From a virus, in IMG/VR virus record IMGVR_UViG_3300043466_004129, positions 1 through 25,236 of that record: a DNA stretch of 25,236 bases. One strand, 5' to 3'. The notes under the pieces were generated by a model. It had not been told where the DNA came from, made no database searches, and was given only the letters and a program-made list of their open reading frames with translations. Each line of letters opens with the position of its first letter. The stretch's first letter is position 1. Below are positions 5,589-20,441 of this stretch, piece after piece. A program made the translations under genes and the position numbers.

Positions 5589-5598
5589 GATGGGATTC

Positions 5599-5841
5599 AT
5601 GTGGACACTGCAGGATGCCAAGAACAAGTTTAGCACGGTGGTGGACGCAGCTCTGGCGGGCACCCCGCAAGAGGTCACGCGGCGCGGCAAGCCGGCAGTC
5701 GTGGTTCTTTCCGCGTCCGAATACCATCAGCTTCTTGCGGAAGCGCAGCGATCAAGGGGATCGTTCGTGGACCATTTGCTTGCCTTTCCTGCGGGAGAGA
5801 TCGAGCGCGCTCAGGTCAAACCCCGGCCGGTAGACTTCTGA
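5599..5841 (+). CDS. Phd/YefM-family antitoxin
   Basis: This 80-residue protein begins MWTLQDAKNKFSTVVDAAL and continues with a VTRRGKPAVVVLSASEY block. Both are the signature of the Phd/YefM fold, which binds operator DNA with its N-terminal domain and neutralises a toxin with its C-terminal tail. The start at 5599 is favoured over the ATG at 5590 because AGGA lies about 8 nt before it and homology begins there. The stop codon shares a base with the toxin start (TGATG), which is usual for such pairs. It lies between the two terminase genes. Confidence 0.88.
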   Translation: MWTLQDAKNKFSTVVDAALAGTPQEVTRRGKPAVVVLSASEYHQLLAEAQRSRGSFVDHLLAFPAGEIERAQVKPRPVDF

Positions 5842-6242
5842 TGTATCTGCTCGACACGAATGTGCTGTCGGCTTTGCGTCGACCTGACCGCGCGCCGCAA
5901 ATCGCAGACTGGCTAGGGACGAAAGCAGAAGATCAACTGTTCATCAGCGTTGTGACGCTCGGCGAGATCGAGCGCGGCATTGCGTTGCAGGAAGATCGAA
6001 ATCCTGATTTTGCGAATGATCTGCGCGGCTGGATAGACCGAACGAGCCTGCTCTTTGCCGACCGCCTCCTGGCCTTTGGACCTGAAGAAGCACGCATCTG
6101 GGGCAGGCTTTCAGCGCGGATCGGACACAACGGCGCGGATCTTCAAATCGCGGCGACGGCGCTGGCGCATGGCGCGGTGGTGGTAACTGGCAATGTGAGT
6201 GACTTTGAACCGACGGGCGTGGAGATCGAAAACCCGTTCTAA
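5841..6242 (+). CDS. PIN-domain toxin, VapC-like ribonuclease
   Basis: This 133-residue protein is a complete PIN domain. LLDTNVLS holds the first metal-binding aspartate (D5), LGEIERG the glutamate (E42), NGADLQIAATA the central aspartate (D100), and NVSDF a further aspartate (D121). Enzymes of this kind cut RNA, often tRNA or rRNA, and stop growth when freed from their antitoxin. All acidic residues are present, so it should be active. It forms an operon with the Phd-like antitoxin just upstream. As cargo in a prophage it could stabilise the element or act against other phages; this is inference. Confidence 0.9.
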   Translation: MYLLDTNVLSALRRPDRAPQIADWLGTKAEDQLFISVVTLGEIERGIALQEDRNPDFANDLRGWIDRTSLLFADRLLAFGPEEARIWGRLSARIGHNGADLQIAATALAHGAVVVTGNVSDFEPTGVEIENPF

Positions 6243-10256: not shown

Positions 10257-10655
10257 TCAGTCACTCAGCAGGCGGACACCGGGAAGTCTTGCGGCCTTAC
10301 GATCGAAGGTCACCAGTTCGTTGGCACCAGCGCGCCGGGCTGCGGCGGCAATCATCAGGTCAGCAAAGCCAAACCCGTCGTTGCGGTAGAGTTCAAGCGC
10401 AGGAGCAACCTCGTCAGAGCCCTCGATGTCCAGCTCAGTTGCTGACAGCAAACCGTCGAGGGCAACGGCGATTTCTGCACGGCCAAGGCGATAGGCGCGC
10501 TCCAGAACCCAGACGAGCTCGATCAAGACCTCGCGGCTGACAAAGCCCTGCGCGTCGTCCGTCAATTGCTCGATCACTTTCGTCGCCAACTGCGCCTGCA
10601 ACGGGTCGTCCTGCACCAGAAAGCGCACCAGAACATTGGTATCGAGCGCGATCAT
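10257..10655 (-). CDS. PIN-domain toxin, VapC-like ribonuclease
   Basis: This 132-residue PIN domain starts IALDTNVLVRFLVQDD. D5, E46 (EVLIELVWVLE), D99 (GFGFADLMIAAAA) and D118 (VTFDRKAA) occupy the conserved metal-binding positions. It is clearly different in sequence from the other PIN toxin in the window (5841-6242). It overlaps its antitoxin gene upstream by 4 bp (ATGA), forming a two-gene unit read leftward, against the structural genes. Likely activity is RNA cleavage; the target is not predictable. Confidence 0.9.
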   Translation of the reverse strand: MIALDTNVLVRFLVQDDPLQAQLATKVIEQLTDDAQGFVSREVLIELVWVLERAYRLGRAEIAVALDGLLSATELDIEGSDEVAPALELYRNDGFGFADLMIAAAARRAGANELVTFDRKAARLPGVRLLSD

Positions 10656-10903
10656 GGATCGAGGTCCACACTATCCATTGCGCCGGTGGCAATGGCCTCG
10701 TCCATCTCGTCCAAGGAGACCGGCTTTTGGCCGGACCTCGACAGGATGCCCCGTAATTCCTTGACGGAACGCGCTTTCACGATGCGCACCTCACCCTCAA
10801 GGATCAGGTAGCGCACCTTGTCCCCGCTGGTCAGACCAAGGGCGGCCCGGACATCTCTCGGAAGGGTCGTCTGACCTTTTACTGTCACCGTCGATTCATG
10901 CAT
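10652..10903 (-). CDS. AbrB/SpoVT-family antitoxin
   Basis: This 83-residue protein begins with a swapped-hairpin AbrB domain (STVTVKGQTTLPRDVRAALG, then GDKVRYLILEGEVRIV), which binds DNA as a dimer. The C-terminal tail (LSRSGQKPVSLDEMDEAIAT) should wrap around the PIN toxin. The start at 10903 is supported by AAGGAG about 7 nt upstream; a longer in-frame start at 10978 lacks homology. It comes first in the operon, as is usual for antitoxins. Confidence 0.85.
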   Translation of the reverse strand: MHESTVTVKGQTTLPRDVRAALGLTSGDKVRYLILEGEVRIVKARSVKELRGILSRSGQKPVSLDEMDEAIATGAMDSVDLDP

Positions 10904-10910
10904 CGGCGTA

Positions 10911-10941
10911 CTCCTTACATAATGAACTTTTTCCTTACCAT
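10911..10941. promoter_or_regulatory. Direct repeat upstream of AbrB-type antitoxin, candidate operator
   Basis: TCCTTAC occurs at 10912-10918 and again at 10932-10938, exactly 20 bp apart, or two helical turns. On the minus strand the repeats read GTAAGGA, and the copy nearer the gene overlaps the ribosome binding site. Dimeric antitoxins often bind such spaced repeats to repress their own operon. Confidence 0.4.
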
Positions 10942-10983
10942 GTGGGGATCGTAAATGCAAAGCCAAGCCGAGGACCAACCCTA

Positions 10984-14913: not shown

Positions 14914-15332
14914 CGCCCCGCGAAACCATACTGACCGCGCTAACAGACCTTTTGCGCACGATCCCCCATGTGCCAGTGCTACGCGGCGAGGTCTTGCCCG
15001 AGCGGATCCCACCCTCAGGCCTGATGATCCTGCGTGACGGCAATCCTGGCGAGCCAGGCGTCACACTGTCGCCACTCACGTATCATTACCAGCACCGGGC
15101 TGAACTCGAAGTGATCGTGCAAAGTAGCACCGCACGAGACGCGCTCTTCGACGCCATTGCGGCGCAGATCGGTACTGTGATCGCAGCAGACCGCACGTTA
15201 CGCGGCCTATGCGATTGGGTGGAGGCCGAGGCGCCAGAGCACGTTGATCAGGCGATAGAGGGCGCGGCCAGCCTCAAGGCGGCGGTCGTACCCATCATTG
15301 TGCATTATTCGCTTGTGGATGCGCTCGCCTGA
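14910..15332 (+). CDS. Tail terminator-like protein, lambda gpU position
   Basis: This 140-residue protein (MTPRETILTALTDLLRTIPH) has a helix followed by beta strands (VPVLRGEVLPERIP, YHYQHRAELEVIVQSSTARD) and the end AAVVPIIVHYSLVDALA. This pattern is typical of small tail terminators and minor tail proteins that cap the tail tube and join it to the head. Databases often label these with misleading names such as acyl-CoA transferase. The ATG overlaps the DUF6441 stop (ATGA), with GGAAGG upstream. Its 3' end overlaps the convergent bactofilin gene by 28 bp. Confidence 0.72.
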   Translation: MTPRETILTALTDLLRTIPHVPVLRGEVLPERIPPSGLMILRDGNPGEPGVTLSPLTYHYQHRAELEVIVQSSTARDALFDAIAAQIGTVIAADRTLRGLCDWVEAEAPEHVDQAIEGAASLKAAVVPIIVHYSLVDALA

Positions 15333-15679
15333 ACGAATTCTGGCGCTGGAGCGATCTTTCTCAAGTGACCTTCGATCACCGCCCCTGCTTCAACGGTTAG
15401 CTTGGCGTAATGAACAGAGCCGTTGATCTGACCCGAATGTGCGACCCGCACATCGCTTGCGACGACGCCTCCGACGACGACGCCTTCAATCGCGGCCTGC
15501 CTGGCCTCGATGTCACCCTTTACATTGGACCAATGCTCGATGGTCACGATGTCACCGGTGATATTGCCGACAACCCGCGCTTGCACCACCAAAGGGCCTT
15601 TGCTCGTAATATCACCAATGACTTCGAGATCAGGCGCAAGCACAGAGGGCTTGCCTGCGGTCGATGTTGGAGAGTTCAT
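15305..15679 (-). CDS. Bactofilin family polymer-forming protein
   Basis: This 124-residue protein has the compact beta-helix pattern of bactofilins: repeating V-x-G-[DN]-I turns (LEVIGDITSKGPLVVQARVVG, then NITGDIVTIEHWSNVKGDI, then GQINGSVHYAKLTVEAGAVI) between disordered ends. Bactofilins polymerise without nucleotide into filaments at the cell membrane and help to shape cells and place cell-wall enzymes. The protein is short but covers the whole core. It is read against the tail genes, and its end overlaps the tail terminator gene by 28 bp. Nothing in the sequence suggests a structural role in the virion; it may be cargo acting on the host envelope. Confidence 0.85.
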   Translation of the reverse strand: MNSPTSTAGKPSVLAPDLEVIGDITSKGPLVVQARVVGNITGDIVTIEHWSNVKGDIEARQAAIEGVVVGGVVASDVRVAHSGQINGSVHYAKLTVEAGAVIEGHLRKIAPAPEFVQASASTSE

Positions 15680-15802
15680 TCGTCGTCAGCCTTAAGCCTG
15701 AGGGTTTTAGGTTAAAAACAACAAAAATGCGCCTGTCATTGATTGCGCAGTCAAGTTGCACTCTGCGCGTATAACCGCATACCTGCAAAAAGGGATAAAA
15801 AA
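15680..15802. promoter_or_regulatory. AT-rich divergent gap between bactofilin and tail tube genes
   Basis: This 123-bp stretch separates two divergent genes and is less GC-rich than its surroundings. On the minus strand TTGACT is present (about 15750-15755), but the sequence 17 nt further on (CGCATT) is a poor -10 element. The bactofilin gene must have a promoter here or be silent; the precise site cannot be fixed by eye. Confidence 0.3.
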
Positions 15803-16741
15803 ATGGCACGAGCCCAAGGGGCGCGGGCGCAGATGGCGCTGGCGTTCGAGACAACCTACGGAACACCTCCTGCGAGCGGGTTCACGCGGATGCCGTTCGC
15901 TAGCACCACGCTCGGGGCAGAGCAGCCGCTCCTGGCCTCGGAACTCCTGGGCTACGGCCGCGATCCGCTGGCGCCGATCAAGGATGCAGTGACCTCGGAC
16001 GGCGATGTGGTGATCCCGATCGACGCGGCTTCGATCGGTTTTTGGCTCAAGGCTGCCTTTGGAGCCCCCACGACCAGCGGCACGACCACCAAGACCCACA
16101 CTTTCCAGTCCGGAAACTGGAACCTCCCGTCGTTTGCCATCGAGACCGGCATGCCGGAGGTGCCGCGCTATGCCATGTATGCGGGCTGCAAACTCGACAG
16201 TCTGAGCTGGCAGATGGGGCGCACCGGGCTTTTGACAGCGACCGCACGCGTGATCGCACAGGGCGAAACGGCGGCGACGGCCTCAACGGCAGGCACGCTG
16301 GCGGATCTGACGCTGACGCGCTTTGGTCACTTCAACGGATCGATCAAGCGCAACGGCCAGCCCATCGGCAATGTAGTCACGGCGGACATCACCTATGCCA
16401 ACAACCTCGACCGGGTGGAGACCATCCGTGCAGACGGCAAGATCGAGGGTGCCGACCCGTCGATTGCGGCGCTCACCGGCAATATCGCCGTGCGCTTTGC
16501 AGATCAGGCTCTGGTGACCCAAGCCATCAACGGCGAGGCCTGCACGCTGGAGTTCGAGTATTCGGTTGCCGGCGGTGCGGGGCTGAAACTCACCGCCCAT
16601 GCCGTCTATTTGCCCCGACCGCGCGTGGAGATCGCGGGGCCACAAGGCATTCAGGCCACTTTTGACTGGCAAGCGGCGCTGGCTGCCGATCCTGGACGGA
16701 TGTGCACAGTGGTTTTGACCAACACTGTTGCGGGCTACTGA
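15803..16741 (+). CDS. Tail tube protein, lambda gpV-like
   Basis: This 312-residue protein matches the large phage tail tube family. It has an N-terminal MARAQGARAQMALAFETTYG and GFTRMPFASTTLG, the middle PLAPIKDAVTSDGDVVIPID and GFWLKAAFG, and a later YTITYA-like DITYANNLDRVETIRADGKI block with EGADPSIAALTGNIAV. It polymerises into the hollow tail tube. The start at 15803 has AAGGGA about 8 nt upstream; an in-frame ATG at 15743 would add a non-homologous leader. The 5' side faces the divergent bactofilin gene, so a promoter for it may lie in the AT-rich gap 15680-15802. Confidence 0.88.
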   Translation: MARAQGARAQMALAFETTYGTPPASGFTRMPFASTTLGAEQPLLASELLGYGRDPLAPIKDAVTSDGDVVIPIDAASIGFWLKAAFGAPTTSGTTTKTHTFQSGNWNLPSFAIETGMPEVPRYAMYAGCKLDSLSWQMGRTGLLTATARVIAQGETAATASTAGTLADLTLTRFGHFNGSIKRNGQPIGNVVTADITYANNLDRVETIRADGKIEGADPSIAALTGNIAVRFADQALVTQAINGEACTLEFEYSVAGGAGLKLTAHAVYLPRPRVEIAGPQGIQATFDWQAALAADPGRMCTVVLTNTVAGY

Positions 16742-17059
16742 TCACATCCTCCCGCCGGCGGCGGATCTGTTGGCCACATGAACGGGATTGCTCAGGCGCA
16801 GGATGCTTTTGCCATCCATCAAGACCTCGGTTGCCGCGCTGCGCATCGGTGCTGCAATCGCTTGGCGACCAAGATCCGCCATTGTCATAGTGACCTCATG
16901 CAGACGTGTCTCCGCGCGATCTGCGCGCTCCGTGGTTTGCTGCAGATAGCCTTGCAGCCAGATCAGCTGCGCACGCAGGTGATCGCGCTCGCTTTTGACA
17001 GCCTCGAGCTCCGAGGAGAGCGCGATGATCTGTTTGGTTCGTTCGCTGGTGGTGCTCAT
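16742..17059 (-). CDS. Hypothetical coiled-coil protein (105 aa)
   Basis: Unrecognised. Residues about 10-65 form a clear coiled coil with heptad spacing of leucine, isoleucine and alanine (TKQIIALSSELEAVKSERDH, then LRAQLIWLQGYLQQTTERAD). A less ordered C-terminus follows (SILRLSNPVHVANRS). GGAGG 6 nt before the ATG is a strong ribosome binding site, which argues that it is expressed. The stop codon directly abuts the tail tube stop, tail to tail. It has no place in the lambda gene order and is the fifth non-structural insert in the late operon. Confidence 0.65.
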   Translation of the reverse strand: MSTTSERTKQIIALSSELEAVKSERDHLRAQLIWLQGYLQQTTERADRAETRLHEVTMTMADLGRQAIAAPMRSAATEVLMDGKSILRLSNPVHVANRSAAGGRM

Positions 17060-17217
17060 CTCTTGCCTCCAGTGCGGGTGCAGTTGGGTTCATGCCAATC
17101 CGTTCGGTGTTGCGCGAAAGGGCGCAGAGCGTCTTGGCGCAGATGGCCCGTATCATGTCCCCGTGTTGGGGGTTTCGCAAATCCAATCCATCTCACCTTT
17201 TGAGGAGCACAAGCTCA
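17060..17217. other. Divergent spacer before tail assembly chaperone
   Basis: These 158 bp separate the minus-strand coiled-coil gene from the tail chaperone gene. A chaperone-frame extension upstream to 17092 is open but looks non-coding. A short CCCC-GTGTT-GGGG hairpin with TTT after it (about 17160-17175) is too weak to call. GAGGAG at 17203-17208 is the ribosome binding site of the chaperone. No convincing promoter is visible. Confidence 0.35.
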
Positions 17218-17679
17218 ATGATCCGATTGAACCTCGCGACGGGGCCTGAATGGCTTGATCTCGGCCATGGGCTGCGCCTTTGTGTCCTGCCCCTAACTTC
17301 GGCAGTAATGATGGCGGCGCGCAAAGGGGCGCAGGCAGAGATCGCCCGCTTTGAAGACAGGGATACTGAGGGCACAGACCCAGATACAGACAGCCTTGGC
17401 CTTGCCATGGCCAAGGCTGTGGCGCGGATTGTTGTGACGGATTGGGAGGGGGTTGGAGACGACTTGGGCCGACCGATCCCCGTTAGCCCAGACGGGATCG
17501 ACGCGCTTTTGGACCTTTGGCCGGTTTTTGAGGCCTTTCAGACCCAATATGTGGCCCGCGCCATGCTGCTGGACGCGGAAAAAAACGCCTTATCGCCCTT
17601 GCCGACTGGGACTTCGGCGGGGGCGGAGACTATTGCACAGCCTGCACTGGCCCATGCCCAGAGTGCCCGGCGCGGCTGA
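17218..17679 (+). CDS. Tail assembly chaperone, lambda gpG-like (unshifted form)
   Basis: This 153-residue protein (MIRLNLATGPEWLDLGHGLR) lies between the tail tube and tape measure genes, where lambda encodes gpG. It is mixed alpha/beta and acidic, with AQAEIARFEDRDTEGTDPDT and LLDLWPVFEAFQTQYVARAM. Such chaperones bind the tape measure and recruit tube subunits. The start at 17218 has GAGGAG about 9 nt upstream. Near the end, an A_AAA_AAC heptamer in frame (17580-17586) followed by a stem marks a programmed -1 frameshift. Ribosomes that do not slip add about 31 residues (from NALSPLPTG) before the stop at 17677. Confidence 0.85.
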   Translation: MIRLNLATGPEWLDLGHGLRLCVLPLTSAVMMAARKGAQAEIARFEDRDTEGTDPDTDSLGLAMAKAVARIVVTDWEGVGDDLGRPIPVSPDGIDALLDLWPVFEAFQTQYVARAMLLDAEKNALSPLPTGTSAGAETIAQPALAHAQSARRG

Positions 17680-17915
17680 ACGCACCGCAGACTGTGGAGG
17701 GCTGGCAGGTCTGGGATCTGGTCCTGCGCCTCGGCGGACAGATGCGGGTCGCAGGGACCTTGGTCATCGGCTGGGACATGGGTGCAGCCCTGCAGCTCGG
17801 CGGAGCGCTGGGCATATCCGCCTTGGCGATCGCCGAGCTGCTGCCCCCGATTGAGGCGGTCATGGTGCGAACGATCAATGAAGAGACACGGGCCACGACC
17901 AGTGCTGCCCGATGA
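17218..17915 (+). CDS. Frameshifted tail assembly chaperone, lambda gpGT-like (-1 shift at 17580-17586)
   Basis: A -1 slip on A_AAA_AAC changes the product after LLDAEK to RLIALADWDFGGGGDYCTAC and then a CPECPARL segment. It continues through VEGWQVWDLVLRLGG (which also has a GTG at 17694) to the stop at 17913-17915, giving about 232 residues. The new C-terminal half looks like a real protein, whereas the unshifted tail is short and low in complexity. In lambda, gpGT bridges the tape measure and the tail tube, and the G:GT ratio is set by frameshifting. The T part contains a CX2CX3CX2C cysteine cluster that could bind zinc, and a hydrophobic stretch (ALQLGGALGISALAIAEL). Confidence 0.82.
17580..17625 (+). 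promoter_or_regulatory. Programmed -1 ribosomal frameshift signal: slippery heptamer and stem-loop
   Basis: The heptamer A_AAA_AAC (17580-17586) is in the correct phase of the gpG-like frame. After a 7-nt spacer, CGCCCTTGCCGA (17594-17605) pairs with TCGGCGGGGGCG (17614-17625) over all 12 positions, including two G-U pairs, with an 8-nt loop. Heptamer, spacer and stem match the classical rules for bacterial and phage -1 frameshifting, and the shifted frame is open for 109 codons. Confidence 0.85.
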
Positions 17916-17963: not shown

Positions 17964-20441
17964 ATGGCCACCAAACAGGTCTCCGTTCGCCTCTCTGCGA
18001 CCGGCGGACGGCAGGTTCGTGCGGAGCTCGAAGGCGTTGGCGAGGCTGGGGCGCGTGGTCTTGGGCGTCTGAGCCGCGAAATGGAGGCAGCCAATCGGCG
18101 AATGGAAGCCTTTTGGCGCCGCACTGGGGTGGCTGCCGGCGCGGCGACGGCTGCCTTGGCGACAGCGCTTGGTGCCATGGTGCGATCGACGGTCGCGGCA
18201 GCCAATGAGATCAGCCAATTTGCGCAGATCGCCAACGCCACGCCAGAGGCATTCCAGCGCTGGTCGGCGGCCTCAAGCACGGTTGGGATCGAACAGGAAA
18301 AGCTCGCCGATATCCTGAAGGACGTGAACGACCGGGTTGGGGACTTCCTGCAAACGGGCGGCGGCCCGATGGCGGACTTTTTTGAGAACATCGCCCCGAA
18401 GGTGGGCGTCACGGCAGAGCAGTTTGCGAGGCTGTCGGGGCCCGAGGCGCTGCAGCTTTATGTCTCGAGGCTGGAGAAGGCGGGCGTTAACCAACAGGAG
18501 ATGACTTTTTATCTCGAGGCGATGGCCTCAGATGCCACACGCCTCATCCCACTTTTGCAACACGGTGGCGCTGAGATGACGCGGCTTGGCGAGCGGGCCG
18601 AGGGACTGGGCGTGGTTTTGGACCAGCGGACGCTCACAGCCCTGCGGCGGACCCAGGTGGCACTCGTCGGCGTGGGTCAGGTTTTTGAGGGCATGCGCAA
18701 TCAGATTGGCGCGGCACTCGCGCCTGCGGTGACAGCCCTTGCCGAGGGGTTTGTCCGCCTTGCCGAGACAGGCGGTCCGATCAACCGCGCCTTCACGGCC
18801 GTGCTCGAAAACCTTGGCCGCATCACAACCTATGCTGCAACCTTTGCCACCCTGATGGCGGGGCGCTGGGTGGCAAGGCTGGCGGCGGCGGCCCTCTCCG
18901 TGAAGGGCCTCGCCACAGCATTGGTCTTTCTGCGTGGAGCCTTGATCCGCACGGGGATCGGCGCACTGATCGTGGGCGCAGGCGAACTTGTTTATCAGTT
19001 CACCCAACTGGTCGCAAAAGTCGGCGGGGTTGGCGCCGCCTTTGGCCTCTTGCGCGATGTCGCGGCAGAGGCCTGGGACCGCCTTGCGCTGGCGGCCACA
19101 GCAGCCTGGTCTCGCGTCGAAACAGGCTGGGCGCGCGCGCAGGCAGGGATTTACGACGGGCTGCAAGCGGCACTGACGGCTGTCGTGGGTTGGGGCAATT
19201 CTGCGGTCGGGACGTTCCAGGGGTCGTTTGATGCGGTGAAGGCGATCTGGGGCGCGCTGCCGCAAGCGATCGGGGATTTTGCCTATCAAGCGGCGAATGG
19301 ACTGATCGGTGGCGTCGAGTCCATGCTGAATGCGGTGGTCACGCGCATCAACAGCTTCATCGAAGGGCTGAACGCGGCCCTCGCCCTCCTGCCCGACTGG
19401 GCCACGGGCGAGGGTGGACTGAAAATCGGCACGCTGGAGGCGGTGGATCTTGGCGGGATTACCAATCCCTTCGAGGGCGCAGCATCCGCCGCGGGCACGG
19501 CAGCAGCTGATGCTTTCCGTGCTGCCATGGGAACCACCTATATCGACGCCCCAGACCTCTTTGGGAGCATGGCTGAGGCTGCGCGATCGCGTGCGGCAGG
19601 GTTTGGCGAGGCGGCCGGCATGTTGTCGGAGGCAGCCTCACGCCCAATGACAGCCTGGGAAGCCCTCAGGGCGGCGATGACCGGCGCAGGTGCCGAGGGC
19701 GAAGACGCACTAAACGGCGCGGCCGCAGCGGCTGGTGCGCTCTCAGACGGGCTTGAAGACGCAGGCCGATCAGCAGGAGTGGCCGGGGGCGCTGCAAAAG
19801 TCGCGGCCGAGGAGGCTGCGACCGGCTGGGCGCAGGTCACGAAATCCCTCGCTGATTATGCCAAGGGCGCGATGGACTGGGGCAAAGGGCTGGGTGAGAC
19901 GCTCACCTCGGCCTTCTCCTCGGCGGAGAACGCCTTTCGGCAGTTTGTGACCACCGGCAAGTTCGACTTCAAATCTTTAGTCTCCTCGATTCTCGCCGAT
20001 CTTGCGACACTGGCCTTCCGCAACGCGGTCTTGGGGCCGCTTGCCACTGCGCTCTCGGGTGTCTTCGGCGGAGGCTCTTTGACCGCTGCAGTCTCCCATG
20101 CGGGTGGCATCGTGGGGTTGTCAGGCCATCGTCGCGATGTACCAGCCTTGGCCTTCGCCGCGGCGCCGCGGATGCATTCCGGCGGTTGGGCGGGCCTGAG
20201 GCCGGATGAAGTCCCCACAATCTTGCAACGTGGCGAGCGGGTTTTGAACCGACGAGAGGCAGCGGATTATGGACGAGGGTCCCAAGCCGGAGCCGGGGTC
20301 AGCATCCACATCGATGCGCGCGGCGCGCAGATGGGCGTGGCCGAGCAAATTGACGCGCGCCTTCGCGCGGCCATTCCGGAGATTGCGCGTATTGCCAAAG
20401 AAAGCGTGGCAGATGGGCGACGCCGGGGCCAGGTGATCTGA
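17964..20441 (+). CDS. Tail tape measure protein, lambda gpH-like
   Basis: This 825-residue protein is the longest but one in the window and follows the tail chaperone genes, the universal place of tape measure proteins. The N-terminal part is helical (LGRLSREMEAANRRMEAFWR) with a hydrophobic segment at about residues 50-78. A larger hydrophobic region (about 290-365, including LVFLRGALIRTGIGALIVGA) may insert in the host membrane during DNA ejection. The C-terminus has MHSGGWAGLRPDEVPTILQR and ERVLNRREA, typical of the family. If it is fully alpha-helical at 1.5 angstrom per residue, the tail would be roughly 120 nm. AGGA lies about 9 nt before the ATG. Confidence 0.92.
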   Translation: MATKQVSVRLSATGGRQVRAELEGVGEAGARGLGRLSREMEAANRRMEAFWRRTGVAAGAATAALATALGAMVRSTVAAANEISQFAQIANATPEAFQRWSAASSTVGIEQEKLADILKDVNDRVGDFLQTGGGPMADFFENIAPKVGVTAEQFARLSGPEALQLYVSRLEKAGVNQQEMTFYLEAMASDATRLIPLLQHGGAEMTRLGERAEGLGVVLDQRTLTALRRTQVALVGVGQVFEGMRNQIGAALAPAVTALAEGFVRLAETGGPINRAFTAVLENLGRITTYAATFATLMAGRWVARLAAAALSVKGLATALVFLRGALIRTGIGALIVGAGELVYQFTQLVAKVGGVGAAFGLLRDVAAEAWDRLALAATAAWSRVETGWARAQAGIYDGLQAALTAVVGWGNSAVGTFQGSFDAVKAIWGALPQAIGDFAYQAANGLIGGVESMLNAVVTRINSFIEGLNAALALLPDWATGEGGLKIGTLEAVDLGGITNPFEGAASAAGTAAADAFRAAMGTTYIDAPDLFGSMAEAARSRAAGFGEAAGMLSEAASRPMTAWEALRAAMTGAGAEGEDALNGAAAAAGALSDGLEDAGRSAGVAGGAAKVAAEEAATGWAQVTKSLADYAKGAMDWGKGLGETLTSAFSSAENAFRQFVTTGKFDFKSLVSSILADLATLAFRNAVLGPLATALSGVFGGGSLTAAVSHAGGIVGLSGHRRDVPALAFAAAPRMHSGGWAGLRPDEVPTILQRGERVLNRREAADYGRGSQAGAGVSIHIDARGAQMGVAEQIDARLRAAIPEIARIAKESVADGRRRGQVI

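Follow-up and report, generated by a model that had tools for sequence, protein, structure and literature searches.

The window analysed here, IMG/VR virus record IMGVR_UViG_3300043466_004129 (25,236 nucleotides (nt), positions numbered from the first letter), carries a tail assembly chaperone gene which, judging from its sequence and that of its relatives, is almost certainly expressed by programmed -1 ribosomal frameshifting. The short product, G, would be accompanied by a fusion, GT, in which the end of G is replaced by a T extension encoded in the -1 frame. That the two form a pair of the gpG/gpGT type had been proposed by a sequence-only reading of the window, and this is strongly supported by approximately 170 homologues, the gene order, profile matches and annotated relatives. 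The features concerned, including the open reading frames (ORFs), are the following:

17202-17207, + strand: Shine-Dalgarno-like GAGGAG, 10 nt upstream of the G start codon (putative, read from the sequence)
17218-17679, + strand: G ORF, tail assembly chaperone, 153 amino acids (aa), product of the 0 frame (phrog_313, E 1.6e-17; homologues align from M1)
17580-17586, + strand: slippery heptamer A_AAA_AAC, in frame with G (heptamer here in 167/167 homologues)
17586-17915, + strand: T extension of 109 aa in the -1 frame, ending in TGA (open frame; conserved in 68 aligned homologues; AlphaFold2 predicted local distance difference test score (pLDDT) 90.7)
17587-17593, + strand: spacer of 7 nt (sequence and fold)
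17594-17605, + strand: 5' arm of a 12-bp stem (fold; paired in the alignment)
17614-17625, + strand: 3' arm of the stem (fold; paired in the alignment)
17634-17666, + strand: four-cysteine motif CxxCx3CxxC in the -1 frame (in 165/167 homologues)
17694-17915, + strand: 73-aa ORF with a GTG start, called mechanically and not a gene in its own right (GTG not kept in homologues)
17754-17894, + strand: match to DUF7697 (PF24752) and phrog_11212 (E 7.8e-23 and 2e-18)

The in-frame codons at the slip site, near the end of the G gene, are GAA AAA AAC. Re-reading of the sequence reproduced the in-frame heptamer, the 7-nt spacer and every coordinate of the earlier proposal, as well as its two mechanical ORFs (17218-17679 and the GTG ORF at 17694-17915), the first of which the mechanical list begins at an upstream ATG (17092), while homologue alignments favour 17218. 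The stem described as fully paired has 12 pairs, of which two are G·U, and closes an 8-nt loop. Recomputation likewise returned 109 open codons in the -1 frame, up to the TGA at 17913-17915, and a predicted fusion of 123 + 109 = 232 residues. The junction, which had been given as ...AEK running directly into RLIALADW, needs correction, as tandem slippage predicts ...DAEK-N-RLIALADW.

The heptamer by itself proves nothing, since AAAAAAC is found twice on the two strands of the window against 0.77 expected by chance; it is position and conservation that carry weight. A search with the G protein, in which the site was absent from the search patterns, gave 80 loci from viral contigs and 80 from genome contigs, homologues thus being found in bacterial genome contigs as well, and addition of six phage records and the window led to a set of 167. 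An in-frame heptamer stands at the same place in all of these (162 AAAAAAC, 3 GGGAAAC and 2 AAAAAAA). Scanning with T yielded 80 loci, some of them on the same contigs as the G-search loci, with AAAAAAC in 79 and GGGAAAC in one, and 12 of the 13 DUF7697 loci retrieved from a bacterial genome sample lie directly behind AAAAAAC or GGGAAAC. Because the sequences are related, these counts do not represent independent events. One locus, L256, has no recognisable slip site, and its T frame, which also lacks a usual start, may be decayed. Among 142 distinct loci, over which codons and A runs were counted, 138 have the codons GAA AAA AAC at the site; of the upstream lysine codons just 39% are AAA, which is outnumbered by AAG. 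In several diverged loci the first triplet is swapped as a block from AAA to GGG, so that the form X_XXA_AAC is preserved, and this swap is the strongest single argument that slipperiness itself is under selection.

Beyond the slip site, the two frames are both coding; mean pairwise identity over the first 16 codons is 0.79 for the -1 frame and 0.62 for the 0 frame. Conventional gene calling would make T a gene of its own, translated independently from the GTG at 17694, and a 73-aa ORF with this start is indeed present. Homologues, however, have CAG, CCG, GTC, GAA and other codons at this place and GTG in only 8 cases; moreover, 108 of the 167 relatives contain no ATG in the -1 frame between the last upstream stop and codon 60, and the conserved region, including the cysteine motif, starts right at the slip, 36 codons ahead of the GTG. 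We therefore give two separate genes next to no credence. A fusion translated from edited transcripts, through slippage of RNA polymerase on the seven consecutive A (17579-17585), would account for the same pair of products, and such a run occurs in the window as well as in 139 of the 142 distinct homologues. Where homologues carry GGGAAAC at this position, however, only three A stand in a row, and the feature preserved across the family is an X_XXY_YYZ heptamer rather than a long homopolymer, which makes this explanation very improbable.

Under ribosomal frameshifting, most ribosomes would read G through to its stop at 17679, while a minority, their P site occupied by tRNA-Lys on AAA and their A site by tRNA-Asn on AAC, would slip back one base on A_AAA_AAC. 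The slip would be aided by the stem located 7 nt downstream, and translation of 109 further codons would yield a GT fusion of 232 aa. If lambda is a guide, the tape measure protein would be coated by the G part, and the less abundant T part would recruit the tail tube protein, so that the ratio of G to GT would control tail assembly. The genes on either side are consistent with this assignment:

15800-16741, + strand: tail tube protein (PF18906, E 1.4e-57)
17964-20441, + strand: tape measure protein (phrog_8462, E 1.4e-117; PF09718)

The order of tail tube, G/T and tape measure is the classical place of a G/GT gene. Prophage status, part of the earlier proposal, is not established for the window, because the record is a virus contig, even though some relatives sit in bacterial genome contigs.

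Several points weigh against the frameshift reading or the part given in it to the stem. In E. coli, A_AAA_AAC slips less readily than A_AAA_AAG (PMC5009743); the efficiency in the host of this virus may differ. Covariation within the stem is weak and barely above that of shuffles (22-40 of 500 shuffles match the observed values), and the stem sits in doubly coding sequence, where there is no synonymous freedom. The dual-frame null was consequently discarded as a stem test, as nearly all loci allow only one possible sequence under it. In terms of energy the stem is strong, as had been claimed: the fold of 17587-17650 reaches -28 kcal/mol (z -2.7 compared to shuffles), and across the loci the stem has a median of -26.2 kcal/mol, compared to -13.7 kcal/mol for random stretches of the same loci, almost all of which it beats. 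The alignment of homologues, suggested earlier as a check, shows both the heptamer and the stem to be kept, with 97% of the stem pair cells retained, but as the stem lies within doubly coding sequence, only part of this conservation can be read as a sign of function. The best independent hint of selection on the stem comes from two diverged loci, L257 and L260, in which the 0 frame stops three codons past the slip and both the heptamer and a strong stem are retained (z -1.9 and -2.5, respectively, against a null preserving the -1 protein). The stem of L255 is likewise strong (z -4.1), while L258 has not retained a strong stem. Selection on the stem is thus only moderately supported, and its stimulatory role is likely, though not proven. 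L257 and L260 are useful as stem test cases free of dual coding.

The profile search with the G product reached no Pfam family. In its AlphaFold2 model (pLDDT 77.6) the 0-frame tail past the slip site is of low confidence, as in a disordered tail. The alignments behind the structure models exclude the proteins of the phage records. Searching the PDB by sequence gave no hit, and a PDB fold search with the G and T models returned no match at E <= 0.001. In the T extension, Cys17, 20, 24 and 27 are invariant in a 65-sequence alignment, and the spacing of the CxxCx3CxxC motif is variable in some relatives. As the motif follows the slip but precedes the GTG at 17694, it is lost from ordinary gene calls. 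DUF7697 and phrog_11212 are both listed without a function, and a literature search for DUF7697 found no paper. A possible interpretation, which we put forward tentatively, is that the T domain in this group of alphaproteobacterial phages is a four-cysteine, probably zinc-binding recruiter of the tail tube, made only by frameshifting and hence missing from ordinary calls.

Other genes of the window were noted alongside. Between the tail tube gene and G, a 105-aa, coiled-coil-like ORF lies on the opposite strand (16742-17059, - strand), and nine further loci have homologues immediately ahead of G or T (L015, L016, L047, L098, L177, L181, L183, L193 and L233). A bactofilin gene (15305-15679, - strand; PF04519, E 8e-20) is likewise inserted on the opposite strand within the tail operon, between the tail terminator and the tail tube; near-identical copies are present in L007, L010 and L011, and in L094, L161, L170, L197, L206 and L241 more distant bactofilins precede the same genes. 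Such recurrence of a bacterial cytoskeletal protein as phage cargo looks unusual. Two toxin-antitoxin pairs were also observed, a Phd/YefM-type antitoxin with a PIN-domain toxin immediately ahead of the gene for the large terminase subunit (5590-6242, + strand) and a PrlF/MazE-like antitoxin with a PIN-domain toxin within the cluster of head genes, on the opposite strand (10257-10978, - strand).

Taken together, the case is a well-supported but ordinary example of lambda-type frameshifting, a mechanism long established. The gain is modest: DUF7697/phrog_11212 is likely the T domain that a tail assembly chaperone acquires by frameshifting, a four-cysteine motif hidden by ordinary gene calls is brought to light, and the rule X_XXA_AAC (X = A or G), which applies to nearly all relatives, could be used by annotation pipelines.

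The precedent, gpG/gpGT of phage lambda, was reportedly worked out by Levin (1993) and Xu (2004/2013). As predicted here, lambda makes a short and a long product; its heptamer is GGGAAAG instead of A_AAA_AAC, and the T part, which may differ as well, has a four-cysteine motif and DUF7697 in the window. The work on lambda is summarised in PMC5009743. Closer relatives are the Rhodobacter phages RcKemmy, RcOceanus and RcKvothe (MW677517, MW677520 and OP009275), which encode homologous G (approximately 36%) and T (approximately 56%), annotated at the same operon place as a short coding sequence and an overlapping joined one. Their heptamer, unlike that of the window, is GGGAAAC, and the Rhodobacter phage paper regards the frameshift as the norm (PMC8601537). 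The pair had previously been regarded as a distinct version of the lambda system, a view which does not stand given these annotations and the fact that A_AAA_AAC is among the heptamers known for this gene. AAAAAAC has already been proposed as the tail chaperone frameshift site of the Acinetobacter phages Loki and IME_AB3 (PMC5313236), and A_AAA_AAC for that of the haloarchaeal virus HCTV-2 (PMC5009743); the likeness to these three lies in the heptamer within a tail chaperone gene. Phage TP901-1 loses its tails when the slippery site is mutated, while a permanent fusion leads to non-infectious particles (PMC4493119).
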